Shown piece after piece: positions 4,416 through 10,796 of a stretch of DNA of 64,000 bases; positions within the stretch are counted from its first letter, which is position 1, and each line of letters starts with the position of its first letter. The stretch lies in the NCBI RefSeq assembly GCF_003148465.1, contig NZ_QGGI01000007.1, positions 1-64,000 on the forward strand, written 5' to 3'. The notes under the pieces are model-generated. The model made no database searches and had not been told where the DNA came from. It saw nothing but the letters and a program-made list of their open reading frames with translations. This stretch comes from Oceanotoga teriensis (GTDB taxonomy: Bacteria > Thermotogota > Thermotogae > Petrotogales > Petrotogaceae). A program made the translations under genes and the position numbers.

Positions 4416-4982
4416 TTATTTTCTACTTCCGGGTTTTATAGGTTTATCTCCATTCTTACAAAATGGACAATCATCTTCTTCATAAATATCTGGTTTGATA
4501 TCAACTAAAGAAATTATTTTATCTCCATCTATTTCATCTATACTACCTCTATTCACTATACAAGCTTTATATATTTTTTTCGGTTTATAATTTTTTAAAA
4601 CTTCTATAACTTCTTTTGTAGATTTTCCAGTTGTTATAACATCTTCTACTATTAAAATTCTCAAATTTTCTTCCAATACAAATCCACGTCTTATATCCAT
4701 ATTTCCTTCTGAATTTCTTTCTGAAAATATAAAATTTTTTCCTAAAGCTTTTGCAGTTTCATATCCTATTATTATTCCGCCAAGAGCTGGAGAAACAACT
4801 ATATCTACTTCATCATCTAATTTGTCAGCAATCATCTCCCCAAACATCTCCGCATAATCTGGATACATCAATACTTTTGCACATTGTATATATGTATCTG
4901 AATGTTTTCCAGATGAAAGCAAAAAATGTCCTTTTAAAACAGCTTCAGTTTTTTCTAAAATATTCATTATATTATTTTTCAT
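4416..4982 (-). CDS. pyrE: Orotate phosphoribosyltransferase
   Basis: It joins orotate to PRPP to give OMP, step five of UMP synthesis. The PRPP-binding loop is clear (ILIVEDVITTGKST), as is the N-terminal SGKHSDTYIQ region. The C-terminus carries CPFC..G..PIKPGSR, a tail typical of the Thermus/Thermotoga/archaeal type of PyrE rather than the enterobacterial one. An ATG at 5000 is possible, but it sits in the ribosome site; GAGGAG lies about ten bases before the ATG at 4982, giving a protein of 188 residues. The gene overlaps the end of pyrF by 11 bases, so the two are probably translationally coupled. It is the last gene of the operon. Confidence 0.95.
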   Translation of the reverse strand: MKNNIMNILEKTEAVLKGHFLLSSGKHSDTYIQCAKVLMYPDYAEMFGEMIADKLDDEVDIVVSPALGGIIIGYETAKALGKNFIFSERNSEGNMDIRRGFVLEENLRILIVEDVITTGKSTKEVIEVLKNYKPKKIYKACIVNRGSIDEIDGDKIISLVDIKPDIYEEDDCPFCKNGDKPIKPGSRK

Positions 4983-5754
4983 AAATATCAATCTCCTCAT
5001 TAATATTATTTTTTAAAGTGATCAAACTTTTCTTTGGATCTTCAGAAAAAATAATACCTCTTGATGAATTAATCAATATATTTTTATTATATGTACTTTT
5101 AATAAGAGCTTTCAAATCTCCGCCTTGTGCACCTATACCTGGAATTAAATAAATTTCATTTTCTGTTATTTCATCTAAATCTTCTATACATTCTTGAGTT
5201 GCACCTGCAACTATTCCAACTCTATTTTCAAATAATCTATTCAATTCATTCGCCAATTTTGAAGTTTTTATATGAAGTTTATTTGGAATTATCAAATCTT
5301 GTGCACTTTTATTAGATGTCAAACTCAAAATAAATATATGTGAATCTTTAAATTCAAGATATGGAATCAAAGAATCTCTTCCCATATAAGGATTAACTGT
5401 TATAGAATCGATTTGCAAATGATCAAAATAATATTTTGCATAAGCTTTTGCAGTATTACCTATATCGCCTCTTTTACAATCTATTATTATTGGAGTATCA
5501 GTACTTTTGATATATTCAACTGTTTTTTCCATCATTTTAATACCCTTATATCCAATTTGTTCATAAAAGGCTATATTCAATTTATAGGTATTTGTATTCT
5601 CATAAGTAGAATCTATTATATATTTATTAAAATTGAAGATTTTTTCTTCATTCACTCCAAATTTATCTGAAATTTTTTCTATATCGCTATCAAGTCCAAC
5701 ACAAACTCTTGAATTCCTGAGATCAACATTTTTCAAATATCTATTATAAAACAT
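4972..5754 (-). CDS. pyrF: Orotidine 5'-phosphate decarboxylase, group 2 type
   Basis: It decarboxylates OMP to UMP, the last step of the pathway. The N-terminal VCVGLDSD and the catalytic IIDCKRGDIGNTA (Lys and Asp of the active-site tetrad) are present, with GIGAQGG and a phosphate-binding SSRGI near the C-terminus. The KRGDIGNTA form and a length of 260 residues fit the group 2 branch. The frame is open further upstream, but that part lies inside pyrD; AAAGGA about ten bases before the ATG at 5754 decides the start and gives an 11-base overlap with pyrD. Confidence 0.95.
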   Translation of the reverse strand: MFYNRYLKNVDLRNSRVCVGLDSDIEKISDKFGVNEEKIFNFNKYIIDSTYENTNTYKLNIAFYEQIGYKGIKMMEKTVEYIKSTDTPIIIDCKRGDIGNTAKAYAKYYFDHLQIDSITVNPYMGRDSLIPYLEFKDSHIFILSLTSNKSAQDLIIPNKLHIKTSKLANELNRLFENRVGIVAGATQECIEDLDEITENEIYLIPGIGAQGGDLKALIKSTYNKNILINSSRGIIFSEDPKKSLITLKNNINEEIDIYEK

Positions 5755-6670
5755 AATTATCAGTCCTTTCATGAGATTTAGAAACAATATCTTCAAAGTT
5801 CTTATTCTTAGATGATAAATAAAAAGCTGTATTTTTAATAATCTTATTAACAATTTCTGGATCCATCATCATAGCCGTCCCAACACCAATAAGATTTGCT
5901 CCAGCCATGGCCAATTCAATAGCATCTTCATGATTAAAAACTCCACCCATACCTATTATTGGTAAATATGGAAATTTTTCTCTTATTTTATAAATACAAT
6001 GTACAGCCATAGGTTTTATAAAAGATCCAGATACACCCCCAGTTTTCATTTTCAAAATAGGTTTACCTGTATTTATATCTATTTTCATACCTTTTAAAGT
6101 ATTGATCAAAGTAACTCCAGAAGCACCATTATAAACACCTATTTTAACGAGTTCTTCTAAATTACTTTCATAACCAAATTTCAAAAAAATAGGTTTATCT
6201 GTTGAATTACAAGATCTTTCAATAACTTTAGAAAGTAGTTTTTTATCATTTAGAAGTGTTGCTCCACCTTTATTTACATTTGGACATGAAAGATTTAATT
6301 CATAAAAATCTATATCATAATCATCAATTTTTTCTATCATATATTCAAAATCATATTCATTATATCCACCTATACTTATTATCTTTAAAGTATTATAATC
6401 TTCTATTCTTTTAATTTCATTTTCTATAAAATAATCTATTCCTTTATTTTCAAGTCCTATAGAGTTGAGAAGTCCATCATTCAAATTAACTATTCTCGGA
6501 GCTTTATTACCTATCTTGGGTTCTTTTGTTATTGTTTTAGTAGTTATTCCACCCAAATTATTTATATCTATTATTTCTGAAAGTTCTTCAAAGTTTCCAC
6601 AAGGTCCAGAAGCTATGATAAAAGGATTTTTTATTTTTTTATTGAATAAATTTGTTTCGAGAAGATTCAT
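5744..6670 (-). CDS. pyrD: Dihydroorotate dehydrogenase B, catalytic subunit
   Basis: This is the FMN subunit that oxidises dihydroorotate to orotate. The class 1 catalytic loop NLSCPNV, with cysteine as the base, is present, as are FIIASGPCG at the N-terminus and the FMN phosphate-binding IIGMGGV and GANLIGVGTA near the end. The length of 308 residues is normal. The pyrK stop and the pyrD start overlap as TAATG. The adjacent pyrK makes this the NAD-dependent class 1B heterotetramer, a cytosolic enzyme. Confidence 0.95.
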   Translation of the reverse strand: MNLLETNLFNKKIKNPFIIASGPCGNFEELSEIIDINNLGGITTKTITKEPKIGNKAPRIVNLNDGLLNSIGLENKGIDYFIENEIKRIEDYNTLKIISIGGYNEYDFEYMIEKIDDYDIDFYELNLSCPNVNKGGATLLNDKKLLSKVIERSCNSTDKPIFLKFGYESNLEELVKIGVYNGASGVTLINTLKGMKIDINTGKPILKMKTGGVSGSFIKPMAVHCIYKIREKFPYLPIIGMGGVFNHEDAIELAMAGANLIGVGTAMMMDPEIVNKIIKNTAFYLSSKNKNFEDIVSKSHERTDNYVL

Positions 6671-7377
6671 TATAAAATCACCTCTTTAATATTAAATAAA
6701 GGTCCATCTTTACAAACCATTTTAACTCCATCCACAGTATCAACAGGGCATCCTTTACACATACCTATTCCACAACCCATATTTTCTTCCATAGATATCC
6801 ACGCTGTTTGATAAGAATCTATTATATACTTTAAATATATAAACATTCCTTTTGGACCACATGAAATTATATTTATATCTTTTCCTTTATTTCTATTTAA
6901 AATATAATCAACGGGATTCATTCCATCTATTCTATCAACAAAAATATTATCATCATCAACTATGCTTTTTATACGATAATCAGAAAATCCAAAAACACTA
7001 TCTTCAATAATATTTGGATAGATTTTTTTTAAATGCATTAAAGGGGCACTTCCACAGCCCCCTCCAATCAAAATATATTTTTTATTAAAGTCTATAAACT
7101 TAGAAAAAGGAGAACCATAAGGTCCCCTAAATAAAAGTTCTTCTCCAATTTTTAGCTTTATTAAAAACTTAGAAAAATCTCCTGCATTTCTTATCAAAAC
7201 TTTAAATTCAAAATCCTTACAATCCATTACAGAAAATGGCTTAGAAAGATTATAACCATCTTTTGATTTCATCATCAAAAATTGTCCTGGCTCTATATCT
7301 AATTTTTTATCGGTTTTAAAAGTAATAACTCCATAATTATAAAAAGATTTGTTTTCGACAACTCTTGCTAAGTTCAT
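6670..7377 (-). CDS. pyrK: Dihydroorotate dehydrogenase B, electron-transfer (FAD/2Fe-2S) subunit
   Basis: It passes electrons from the PyrD FMN to NAD+. It has an N-terminal ferredoxin-reductase FAD domain (PGQFLMMK, KPFSVMD), a nucleotide-binding GGGCGSAPL, and a C-terminal cysteine cluster CGIGMCKGCP...C for the 2Fe-2S centre. The length of 235 residues is slightly short for the family. The start overlaps the pyrC stop as ATGA. Confidence 0.94.
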   Translation of the reverse strand: MNLARVVENKSFYNYGVITFKTDKKLDIEPGQFLMMKSKDGYNLSKPFSVMDCKDFEFKVLIRNAGDFSKFLIKLKIGEELLFRGPYGSPFSKFIDFNKKYILIGGGCGSAPLMHLKKIYPNIIEDSVFGFSDYRIKSIVDDDNIFVDRIDGMNPVDYILNRNKGKDINIISCGPKGMFIYLKYIIDSYQTAWISMEENMGCGIGMCKGCPVDTVDGVKMVCKDGPLFNIKEVIL

Positions 7378-8669
7378 ACCAAAACATCTTCTTTCGAATA
7401 AACTTTTTTACCTTTTATAAAAGTATATTCAACAACACCAGGAAGATCCATTCCCATAAAAGGAGTATTTTTACCTTTTGAAAATACTGTTTTATTATTT
7501 ACATTCCATGTTTCATTTTCATTCAAAATCACTAAATCAGCAAAATATCCTTCTTTTATATCTCCCTTTTTTTCTAAATTAAAGATTCTTGTTGGATAAT
7601 AAGTTACCTTTTCTATGAGTTTTTTTAATGAAATATCTTCTTCAATAGAAAGTTTCAAAAGAGAGGATAATAAAGTATCTAAACCACTTATACCATTTGG
7701 GGCATTCTGAAACTCTACTTCTTTTTCATAATCAGCATGTGGTGCGTGATCTGTAACTATTATATCTATTAAATCATCTTTTAAAGCTTGAATAAAAGTA
7801 TTTCGAGATTCTTCATCCGCCAATGGTGGATTAACTTTAAAAGATGTAGAATAATCTTTTAAATCTTTATCTGTAAATATCAAATGATTATGTGTAACTT
7901 CACAGCTAACCTTAACTCCATCTTTTTTTGCATTTTTTATTAAATTCAAACTTTCTTGAGTTGAAACATGAGCTATATGTACATGTGCATCTGTATATTT
8001 AGCAAGTTCTATATCCCTTGCAACCATTATAGATTCTGCAACAGAAGGTATTCCATAAATCCCATAAAAATTTGAATATTCACCTTCTCGCATAAAACCC
8101 GTTTTAGATAATTCTTTAACTTCTGCATGATTTATTATAGGTCTATTAGTCATTTTATAATATTCAAGAGCTTTAAGCATTATATGTGCATTTTCAACTG
8201 GATTACCATCATCTGAAAATGCTATTGCACCTCGTTTAGCCATATTAATCATCGGTGCAAGTTCAACACCTTGTGATTTTTTAGTAACAGCTCCTATAGG
8301 CAAAATTTCTGAAAGGCCATATAATTCAGATTTCATTTTTAAATATTCTACTAAATATTCATTATCTATAACAGGATCTGTGTTTGGCATTACTCCTACA
8401 GTAGTCACACCACCTTTAACTGCAGCTTTAAGTCCACTCTCTATAGTCTCTTTATATTCATATCCTGGTTCTCTGAGATGAACATGCATATCTATAATAC
8501 CAGGTATTAAAGTTTTTCCATTTAAATCAATACATTCATCATATACAAGAGAATCTGGTGTATCTTCACATGAAAATATCTTTTCAATAATTCCATTATT
8601 TAAAAGTAAATCAAACATTCCATCACATGATTTAGATAAAACTTTAGCATTCTTTAAAAAAATTATCAT
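7374..8669 (-). CDS. pyrC: Dihydroorotase
   Basis: It cyclises carbamoyl-aspartate to dihydroorotate. It is a class I amidohydrolase of 431 residues. The metal-binding DMHVHLREPGYEYKET and the later DHAPH are intact, and NHAE and HIAHVST supply further ligands. The start overlaps the pyrB stop as ATGA, so the operon is tightly coupled. Confidence 0.95.
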   Translation of the reverse strand: MIIFLKNAKVLSKSCDGMFDLLLNNGIIEKIFSCEDTPDSLVYDECIDLNGKTLIPGIIDMHVHLREPGYEYKETIESGLKAAVKGGVTTVGVMPNTDPVIDNEYLVEYLKMKSELYGLSEILPIGAVTKKSQGVELAPMINMAKRGAIAFSDDGNPVENAHIMLKALEYYKMTNRPIINHAEVKELSKTGFMREGEYSNFYGIYGIPSVAESIMVARDIELAKYTDAHVHIAHVSTQESLNLIKNAKKDGVKVSCEVTHNHLIFTDKDLKDYSTSFKVNPPLADEESRNTFIQALKDDLIDIIVTDHAPHADYEKEVEFQNAPNGISGLDTLLSSLLKLSIEEDISLKKLIEKVTYYPTRIFNLEKKGDIKEGYFADLVILNENETWNVNNKTVFSKGKNTPFMGMDLPGVVEYTFIKGKKVYSKEDVLV

Positions 8670-9598
8670 ATACCTTCACCGCCCATCATCTTATAAATCA
8701 AGGCTGTTCTCGTTGCAACACCATTTTTAACCTGTTCATTTATAACTGAATAATGCTTATCTGCTATACTACCAGAAAGTTCTACACCTCTATTTATAGG
8801 ACCTGGATGCATAAGTATTGCGTTTTTATTGGCATATTTTTCAAATAATTCTTCAGTAATTCCAAAATTTTCATTATACTCTTTAAGACTGGCAAATAAT
8901 CCATCTGTCTGTCTTTCAAGTTGCATTCTTAAACCCATAACAACATCTGATCCTTTAATCGCTTCAACAACATCATTTGTAAAATTCATATTATAAAGTG
9001 AAGATGATTTTGGTGTAAGTGTAGACGGTGAACAAACAGTTATATTTGCACCGAGTTTATTTAAAAGTTTGAGGTTAGATCTTATAACTCGACTATGATA
9101 ATAATCTCCTATTATTGAAATTCGTAAATCTTTAAAAGAACCAAATCTTTCAAAAATGGTAAAAGTATCGAGTAAAGCTTGTGTGGGATGTGCGTGAAGA
9201 CCGTCTCCAGCATTTATTATTTGAGCATCTGTAAACTTGCTTATAAAAGCTGGCGAACCAGGTTCTCTATGTCTTATAACATAAAGATCTATAGACATAG
9301 ATGACAATGTAAGAACTGTATCTTTTAAAGTCTCTTTTTTAGATAAAGCACTTGAAGAAGTATTAAAATTTAACACATTCATTCCTAAAAATTTTTCTGC
9401 AAGTTCAAATGAATTTTTAGTCCTTGTACTCGGTTCTACAAAAAGATTACAAACCGTCTTATCTTTAAAAATAGGCAATTTATTTACCGGTGAACTCATT
9501 CGTCTTTTGAATATTTTAGCAAGTTCAAAAAGTTCATAAACTTCCATTATTTCTAATTCGTCAACATCGTAGAGATTTCGTGCTCTCATGGCAATCAT
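8666..9598 (-). CDS. pyrB: Aspartate carbamoyltransferase, catalytic subunit
   Basis: It condenses carbamoyl phosphate with aspartate, the committed step. The carbamoyl-phosphate loop reads PSTRTKNSFE (commonly STRTR), with HPTQALLD and MHPGPINRGVEL downstream. The 310 residues hold only the catalytic chain: no PyrI regulatory chain is fused or adjacent, unlike the PyrB-PyrI fusion known in Thermotoga. The start is fixed by TAGGAGGAG six bases upstream. It is the first enzyme gene of the operon; the leader peptide and attenuator lie just before it. Confidence 0.95.
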   Translation of the reverse strand: MIAMRARNLYDVDELEIMEVYELFELAKIFKRRMSSPVNKLPIFKDKTVCNLFVEPSTRTKNSFELAEKFLGMNVLNFNTSSSALSKKETLKDTVLTLSSMSIDLYVIRHREPGSPAFISKFTDAQIINAGDGLHAHPTQALLDTFTIFERFGSFKDLRISIIGDYYHSRVIRSNLKLLNKLGANITVCSPSTLTPKSSSLYNMNFTNDVVEAIKGSDVVMGLRMQLERQTDGLFASLKEYNENFGITEELFEKYANKNAILMHPGPINRGVELSGSIADKHYSVINEQVKNGVATRTALIYKMMGGEGI

Positions 9599-9631
9599 AT
9601 TAATCTCCTCCTAAATTTATTTAATTTTATA

Positions 9632-9665
9632 AAAAAAACACTCATCTAAACAAAGATGAGTGTTC
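9632..9665 (-). terminator. Attenuator-type terminator in the pyr operon leader
   Basis: On the minus strand an 11-base-pair stem (AACACTCATCT / AGATGAGTGTT) with a six-base loop is followed by T8, 33 bases before pyrB. It lies between the operon promoter region and the first structural gene, so it must be read through for expression. The stop codon of the leader peptide falls at the end of its 5' arm and loop, so a ribosome arriving there would prevent the hairpin from forming. Confidence 0.85.
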
Positions 9666-9757
9666 CATAATTGATTTCATAAAGAGAAAATGATATCCCC
9701 TGTTTTAAAAACAGGTTATGGAGGAATATTGATTTTTTATTAAATTCATTGTTCATA
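9647..9757 (-). CDS. pyr operon leader peptide, 36 residues
   Basis: A 37-codon frame starts with ATG at 9757, five bases after a strong AGGAGGG, and ends with TAG at 9647-9649 inside the attenuator hairpin. The peptide begins MNNEFNKKSIFLHN and has no recognisable domain; its sequence probably matters less than its position. It resembles E. coli PyrL, whose translation overlaps the pyrBI attenuator. In that model low UTP slows RNA polymerase in U-rich leader sequence, the ribosome catches up, and the terminator cannot form. No PyrR gene or PyrR-type binding loop is visible here. Confidence 0.75.
9700..9716 (-). promoter_or_regulatory. Candidate transcription-pause hairpin in the pyr leader
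   Basis: The minus strand reads CCTGTTTTTAAAACAGG, able to fold into a 7-bp stem, followed within a few bases by U-rich sequence (ATTTTCTCTTTATG). A pause hairpin before a U tract, upstream of a terminator and inside a leader reading frame, is the layout of the E. coli pyrBI attenuator. Confidence 0.5.
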
Positions 9758-9833
9758 TTAACCCTCCTATCAATTTCTTATATATACTAACACTTTTAAA
9801 ATATTTTTATTTTACATAAAAATTAATTTTATT

Positions 9834-10796
9834 TTACATTTTAAGCACATCATCCTTCAAAATCTTAAAACCTTCATTCTCTATATATTTTAATCTTTCA
9901 AATTTCTTTATTAAACTATCTTTATTTTCTATAATATAATAATCATTATGACCTAAAAAAGGATATTCCAAAACTAATTCAGAAAAAATTGAAGATACTT
10001 CTAAAAATATTTCAATCACTTCTGAACTTATATTCAAAGAAGAACTTTTCTCTCTTAAATAATTTAAATAGTCATAAATAGCTCTTTTAGACTCATTATA
10101 AACTGAAAGACAGTACTTGAATCCAAATCTATCAAAATCTCCTTCCTTGATAGAAAACATTAAATTATCATATGCTTTTAAACCTTTAGAATAATACTTT
10201 GAAATATGAAATTTCTTATTCCATTCTCTAACTCCATATGCTAAAGAAGTTCTATAAGCTTTTTCATTGTCTATTTTAATAAAATCTTTTATAAAACAAA
10301 TATATAAATATGGAACTAAAGAAAAACCAAGATTTTTATATAAAAGAGGATCTGGATCATCATTTGCAACATCTTTTGCAAAAAAAACTTCATCTTCATC
10401 ATCATAACCATTAATAATTCCAAACTCTAAAATATCTGTTGGTGCCCATATAATAACAGGTGTATCTTTATCTATATAATTTTTTATTAAAGATATACAA
10501 TCATTTTGTAAATACCTATATGTATTTAAATCATTATTAAAATTTAATTTAAAATCTGAATAAATACCTACTCTATCGAGTTGATGAAAATGTTCACTTC
10601 CCCAATCATAAACAGTTACTCCACCAGCATCACATTTAGTTCCAATTACAAAATCAAAAGCTCTTCCAGAAATACCTAAAAGTTCAAAATTAGAGATATC
10701 ATCAAAACCCTTATATTTCAAAACAGATTTAACCGCGCCCATAAAAGAGTTCCACATATTAATTTTTTCAACATTTTTTAAATATTTTTTATTCAT
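9834..10796 (-). CDS. BtrH-like (cysteine-peptidase-fold) protein of unknown role
   Basis: The N-terminal half resembles the butirosin-biosynthesis BtrH N-terminal domain, a papain/C39-like fold. It has an opening W.SFMGAVKSVLKYKG, then ISGRAF.F and a V..W.PTD.LEFGI.NGYD stretch. The C-terminal half is helical. The catalytic cysteine expected near the start is not obvious, so an enzymatic role is uncertain; such domains are often found with regulators or sensors. The start at 10796 has GGAGGAT eight bases upstream and overlaps the WYL regulator by eight bases, so the two are coupled. Confidence 0.5.
   Translation of the reverse strand: MNKKYLKNVEKINMWNSFMGAVKSVLKYKGFDDISNFELLGISGRAFDFVIGTKCDAGGVTVYDWGSEHFHQLDRVGIYSDFKLNFNNDLNTYRYLQNDCISLIKNYIDKDTPVIIWAPTDILEFGIINGYDDEDEVFFAKDVANDDPDPLLYKNLGFSLVPYLYICFIKDFIKIDNEKAYRTSLAYGVREWNKKFHISKYYSKGLKAYDNLMFSIKEGDFDRFGFKYCLSVYNESKRAIYDYLNYLREKSSSLNISSEVIEIFLEVSSIFSELVLEYPFLGHNDYYIIENKDSLIKKFERLKYIENEGFKILKDDVLKM

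Follow-up and report, generated by a model that had tools for sequence, protein, structure and literature searches.

Upstream of the pyrimidine biosynthesis operon of Oceanotoga teriensis, a short frame behind a strong Shine-Dalgarno (SD) sequence ends within a transcription terminator, and this raises the question of whether the operon is controlled by a translating ribosome that follows RNA polymerase through the leader. Enterobacterial pyrBI is the textbook case of nucleotide sensing through the distance between ribosome and polymerase, and this mode of control is known mainly from enterobacteria. We examined the locus in the window, by which we mean the whole stretch of 64,000 nucleotides that was analysed, and in 103 genomes of the phylum. 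On the minus strand of the window the genes run in the order pyrB-pyrC-pyrK-pyrD-pyrF-pyrE, from 9598 down to 4416. They were named with NCBIfam, with pyrK assigned by its best match, below the cut-off, and by its position:

8666..9598, minus strand: pyrB, aspartate carbamoyltransferase catalytic subunit (NF002032, 348.8 bits, cut-off 263)
7374..8669, minus strand: pyrC, dihydroorotase (TIGR00857, 400.9 bits)
6670..7377, minus strand: pyrK, dihydroorotate dehydrogenase electron-transfer subunit (best match NF000798, 117.5 bits, below the curated cut-off), between pyrC and pyrD
5744..6670, minus strand: pyrD, dihydroorotate dehydrogenase (NF005574, 298.2 bits)
4972..5757, minus strand: pyrF, orotidine-5'-phosphate decarboxylase (TIGR02127, 212.9 bits)
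4416..5000, minus strand: pyrE, orotate phosphoribosyltransferase (TIGR01367, 185.1 bits)

The small chain of carbamoyl-phosphate synthase (PF00988), the enzyme that would supply PyrB with carbamoyl phosphate, was not found in this genome (G000), which is estimated to be 99.86% complete.

Within the 170 nt ahead of pyrB, AGGAGG and an ATG open a frame of 36 codons, and the same interval holds a hairpin of 7 bp, a stretch mildly rich in U and a terminator. These elements are listed here with a candidate promoter element and a predicted partner of the SD:

9779..9784, minus strand: candidate -10 element TATATA of the pyr promoter, read from the sequence with low confidence
9763..9768, minus strand: Shine-Dalgarno AGGAGG of the leader frame (duplex -10.7 kcal/mol)
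9646..9756, minus strand: leader ORF of 36 aa, MNNEFNKKSIFLHNLFLKQGISFSLYEINYGTLIFV, with its ATG at 9756 and no Pfam family
9720..9724, minus strand: CCTCC inside the leader frame, partner of the leader SD in the predicted fold
9699..9715, minus strand: hairpin CCTGTTT-TTA-AAACAGG within the leader frame (7 bp, 3-nt loop), a candidate pause hairpin
9679..9693, minus strand: pyrimidine/U-rich stretch TCATTTTCTCTTTAT in the interval between hairpin and terminator, weakly above local composition
9631..9665, minus strand: intrinsic terminator, the putative attenuator (hairpin core 9663-9638, -13.7 kcal/mol, with an A:T extension and T8 at 9638-9631)

The leader stop codon, TAG at 9648-9646, lies at the junction between the loop and the 3' arm of the terminator hairpin, and the terminator region (9720-9622) folds with a z-score of -5.65, none of 200 shuffles folding equally well. 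An earlier note on this DNA had described a strong SD, a 36-residue frame and a stop codon inside a terminator hairpin with T8, and the frame at 9756-9646 and its surroundings bear this out. The upstream hairpin that it had reported is also present (9715-9699); the U-rich stretch is real but weak, with U making up 38% of the 40 nt preceding the terminator versus 34% further upstream, which is modest given the AT-rich genome. In the predicted fold of the isolated RNA the leader SD has a pairing probability near 1, and its pairing with CCTCC is possibly a secondary control on leader translation. The preceding gene, on the same strand and of unknown family, ends at 9834, which leaves 78 nt to the leader start, and the scan found no terminator between this gene and the pyrB leader, so that the position of the pyr promoter is uncertain; no good -35 element matches the TATATA at 9784-9779, and the promoter scan lists no promoter exactly there.

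Of 71 ordinary genes from these genomes, 46 had their stop codon inside a terminator or at most 14 nt from one. Where the window frame stops is therefore not diagnostic by itself, and a stop within the hairpin was dropped as stand-alone proof. Of the 71 ordinary gene-terminator pairs, just 3, all of them weak candidates, had a frame that runs through the terminator. Our detector consisted of a terminator and an SD-led frame of 20-70 codons reaching its hairpin, with an SD duplex of at most -6 kcal/mol. For the window leader, a short frame behind an SD extended to the terminator in 3 of 300 dinucleotide shuffles (p=0.010). The control set comprised 94 strong terminators from the window and 400 kb of its own and related genomes; six of the 93 others passed the detector (SD -6.0 to -7.6), several of which resemble tRNA gene fragments, and the SD of the window leader was by far the strongest of the 94. 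As a positive control, E. coli pyrL passed with an SD of -10.3, a start-to-hairpin distance of 88 nt and a frame running through the hairpin. A Fisher-combined, frame-only test gave a modest p=0.014 with starts that had been selected for openness, and we placed weight on the selection-aware shuffle test and the other-terminator control rather than on this value. An Rfam scan of the window gave no match above threshold.

Using a PyrB search over the 103 genomes, with the PyrB type defined by E up to 1e-40, we found the type of the window in 13 genera. One of them, that of G021, has the pyrB nearest to that of the window, but the gene breaks off close to a contig edge; this genus was excluded, and the comparison covers more distant relatives. 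In each of the 12 remaining genera, which span seven families, an SD-led short frame runs into, to or beyond a terminator before the operon, compared with 0.74 genera expected from shuffles (P about 2e-16); set against the 6 of 93 other terminators, the 12 of 12 pyr leaders give a Fisher value of 1e-11. The frames measure 30-56 codons in the genus representatives, and the first gene behind the leader is pyrB or, in families f2, f5 and part of f7, pyrR. Across 641 leader codons there are four in-frame stops, at or near the hairpin, versus 48 and 42 in the other two frames. The frame passes right through the terminator in G003, G005, G041, G045, G047, G048, G054, G057-G060 and G100, and in the G057 group a single frame crosses two tandem terminators and stops at the start of pyrB. 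It is these through-running relatives that carry the argument for the group, and the window locus belongs to it by layout. Between genera the leader peptides show no match beyond the stretches that the terminator stems encode, so the retained elements are the frame, the SD and the terminator. Conservation of frame and hairpin rather than peptide sequence was the check that the earlier note had named, and its outcome is strongly positive. G040, in which the frame enters the terminator and the SD is poor, was not taken as the f5 representative, and the genomes of f10 genus g35 were not counted, the terminator before PyrBI there belonging to a long upstream gene. Within the family to which the window belongs, genomes with a fused PyrBI lack the attenuator leader and were likewise left out; four distant PyrB loci from a contig scan had, by eye, no such leader upstream.

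Conservation of a pause signal is less uniform. The mid-frame hairpin is missing in f5 leaders and in those of f8 genus g25, and the leaders of f5 and f8 are poor in U; with the U tract weak and the hairpin missing in these groups, UTP-dependent pausing is without the support of a conserved pause signal. In six f7 leaders that precede pyrR, from three genera (L076-L080, L083), a covarying in-frame hairpin with a short A-rich loop is followed by a U-rich stretch, and in a small hand-made alignment 88% of cells were paired versus 71% after shuffling (0 of 500 shuffles); this hairpin could act in pausing or be bound by PyrR. The pause at E. coli pyrL is independent of NusA and of a stable hairpin (PMC9291695), and the missing conserved hairpin is therefore not fatal to a pyrBI-like model. 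Of the pyrBI-like, translation-coupled attenuation that had been proposed for this locus, the layout stands, with all 12 genera and a geometry like that of pyrL, whereas a conserved pause hairpin and U tract do not extend across the phylum.

We regard the leader of pyrBCKDFE as probably a translation-coupled transcription attenuator that is pyrBI-like and independent of PyrR. We infer that ribosomes translate the frame, that their coupling to the polymerase governs readthrough and that the signal is the UTP-dependent speed of elongation, the choice of UTP following from the function of the operon and its resemblance to the E. coli system. Under this model, a ribosome would begin the 36-codon frame while the leader is still being transcribed. 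Scarce UTP would slow the polymerase in the leader and leave the first ribosome close behind it, and such a ribosome, at the stop codon, would cover the 5' arm of the terminator, so that no hairpin forms and the operon is transcribed; with ample UTP the polymerase would outrun the ribosome, the hairpin would form and transcription would end before pyrB. In E. coli, low UTP slows the polymerase in a U-rich leader, the ribosome follows and the terminator is blocked (PMC10135430, PMC5021804, PMC4824070). The anatomy of the window leader would permit the same course of events. The trick of a trailing ribosome that cancels a terminator probably also arose, or long existed, in this distant phylum. 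On the wider scale, leader-peptide, ribosome-coupled and PyrR-independent attenuation may be the ancestral pyr control of the phylum, keeping only frame, SD and terminator and including the tandem-terminator variant, which we hold to be a serious possibility short of a probable one.

A role for PyrR bears directly on this reading. The genome of the window encodes PyrR (NF003548, 225.4 bits, cut-off 218), with pyrR on another contig and unlinked to the pyrB operon. The PyrR loop has no match in the pyrB leader even with three mismatches, and the Rfam PyrR model (RF00515) reaches 26 bits there versus a threshold of 54, with a fit confined to the terminator and AU-rich stems. An exact AGTCCNGNGAGGCT occurs just once in the genome (G000:C13:66478-66491; L046:1514-1527), immediately ahead of the SD of uraA, which encodes a uracil permease, a placement suggesting that translation of uraA may be under PyrR control. 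The earlier observation that no PyrR motif is seen thus holds for the leader but not for the genome, which has both pyrR and a predicted PyrR site before uraA. Bacillus subtilis PyrR attenuators (RF00515) likewise act on pyrimidine operons, and both PyrR and a single canonical loop are present in this genome; unlike in that system, the loop is not in the pyrB leader and is placed before the uraA SD. Among the relatives, most leader-bearing genera encode PyrR, and the operon behind the attenuator begins with pyrR in G003, G005, G040, G041 and G049-G054, where PyrR may act on the leader. No PyrR match was found in G045-G048, G088, G100 or G102, in which the leader type is present (the leader of G046 itself is cut off); in four or more genera, then, the leader occurs without a detectable PyrR, so it needs no PyrR in general.

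Van de Casteele et al., writing in 1997 (J Bacteriol), reportedly proposed that PyrR and a translating ribosome act together at the pyrR-pyrB-bbc-pyrC leader of Thermus ZO5. There, as here, the translating ribosome is proposed to prevent terminator formation, with no antiterminator; in Thermus PyrR is the proposed effector and pyrR lies in the operon, whereas here pyrR is unlinked and the leader lacks the loop. Carried over to the window, this model would keep the same coupled attenuator and replace the signal, with UMP/UTP-bound PyrR blocking leader translation or road-blocking the ribosome so that the terminator forms. PyrR is indeed encoded in this genome and in most leader-bearing genera, in some genomes directly behind the attenuator, the leader SD is predicted to be sequestered, and the covarying hairpin of the six f7 leaders could be a protein site; the absence of a PyrR loop from the pyrB leader, the sole perfect loop at uraA and the four genera with the leader and no PyrR argue against it, and we consider it unlikely for the window. 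The relatives G003, G041 and G049-G054, whose operons begin with pyrR, appear to resemble Thermus ZO5 more than the window does.

That the frame is an ordinary small gene or a chance frame beside an ordinary terminator, without attenuation, is improbable. The frequency of stops near or in terminators of ordinary genes and the same-strand gene ending just 78 nt upstream speak for such a view; against it, the layout precedes the same operon in every testable genus with unrelated peptides, the frames of several lineages cross the terminator up to the start of the first gene, and a strong terminator right before a biosynthetic operon serves no ordinary purpose. Attenuation of the amino-acid type (trp/his) or by an arrest peptide, in which stalling at particular codons would switch between antiterminator and terminator, appears highly improbable. 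A leader peptide and a terminator do exist, and in one intermediate predicted fold AGUGUU (9794-9789) pairs over a long range with the 5' arm of the terminator; this motif is probably untranscribed, however, because it lies upstream of the candidate -10. The leader also has no single-amino-acid runs, no peptide is conserved between genera, and the stop falls within the terminator, whereas in amino-acid attenuators the leader stop lies more than 20 bp ahead of it (PMC4824070).

The comparison with pyrL of E. coli and Salmonella is consistent with the pyrBI-like reading. Both leaders have a strong SD (-10.3 there, -10.7 here), a frame of about 40 codons, a similar start-to-hairpin distance (88 nt there, 93 nt here) and a strong terminator with a T run that lies within or overlaps the frame directly before pyrB. 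In contrast, the stop codon lies inside the hairpin here and 27 nt past it in E. coli, and the operon is pyrBCKDFE rather than pyrBI, with PyrR encoded elsewhere in this genome. The peptide aligns to enterobacterial pyrL with a local BLOSUM62 score of 18, within the range among unrelated leaders, and the likeness would thus be one of mode of action rather than descent; the convergent evolution proposed earlier fits such unrelated peptides. Translation-coupled attenuation outside the enterobacteria was reportedly proposed earlier in the Thermus ZO5 model, though with PyrR as a component. The coupling idea is accordingly not wholly new outside enterobacteria, and it is its breadth in this phylum that appears new; a partial literature search found no paper on pyr attenuators in Thermotoga. 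If the reading is correct, a recurrent PyrR-independent version would show tight transcription-translation coupling serving regulation in a distant phylum and would offer a natural reporter for comparing coupling between phyla. It would also constitute a leader type missed by structure-based RNA libraries such as Rfam, because neither RNA sequence nor peptide is conserved.

Several further observations concern individual loci. In the nearest relative, G021, transposase-like sequence at the start of the contig breaks pyrB near codon 95 (L010:1-343, G021:C9), with pyrC intact after it; a search for a second piece of this pyrB found none. The same genome carries the perfect PyrR loop AGTCCNGNGAGGCT before the SD of its uracil permease gene (G021:C2:194037, L047). 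Upstream of the fused PyrBI gene (L014, L021, L023, L030, L031), an inverted repeat separates the -10 region from the Shine-Dalgarno, which recalls the start-site switching of E. coli pyrC, and in G024 (G024:C7:278973-280552) the fused PyrBI gene is apparently broken by an in-frame stop and a frame change. In G037, a fragmented genome with 6% contamination, a purine riboswitch (RF00167, 71.7 bits; L012:126-228, G037:C377) and a terminator precede pyrB, which is followed by a pyrI-like frame, so that a purine signal stands ahead of pyrimidine genes. Upstream of pyrB in L091-L095, one leader frame contains two tandem terminators, and a small AGUCC/GGGCU hairpin there would be a competitor for the 5' arm of the first. 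In G040 and G041 (L082 and L081) the leader frame of the pyrR-pyrB operon is separated from the promoter by a tRNA gene-like sequence.
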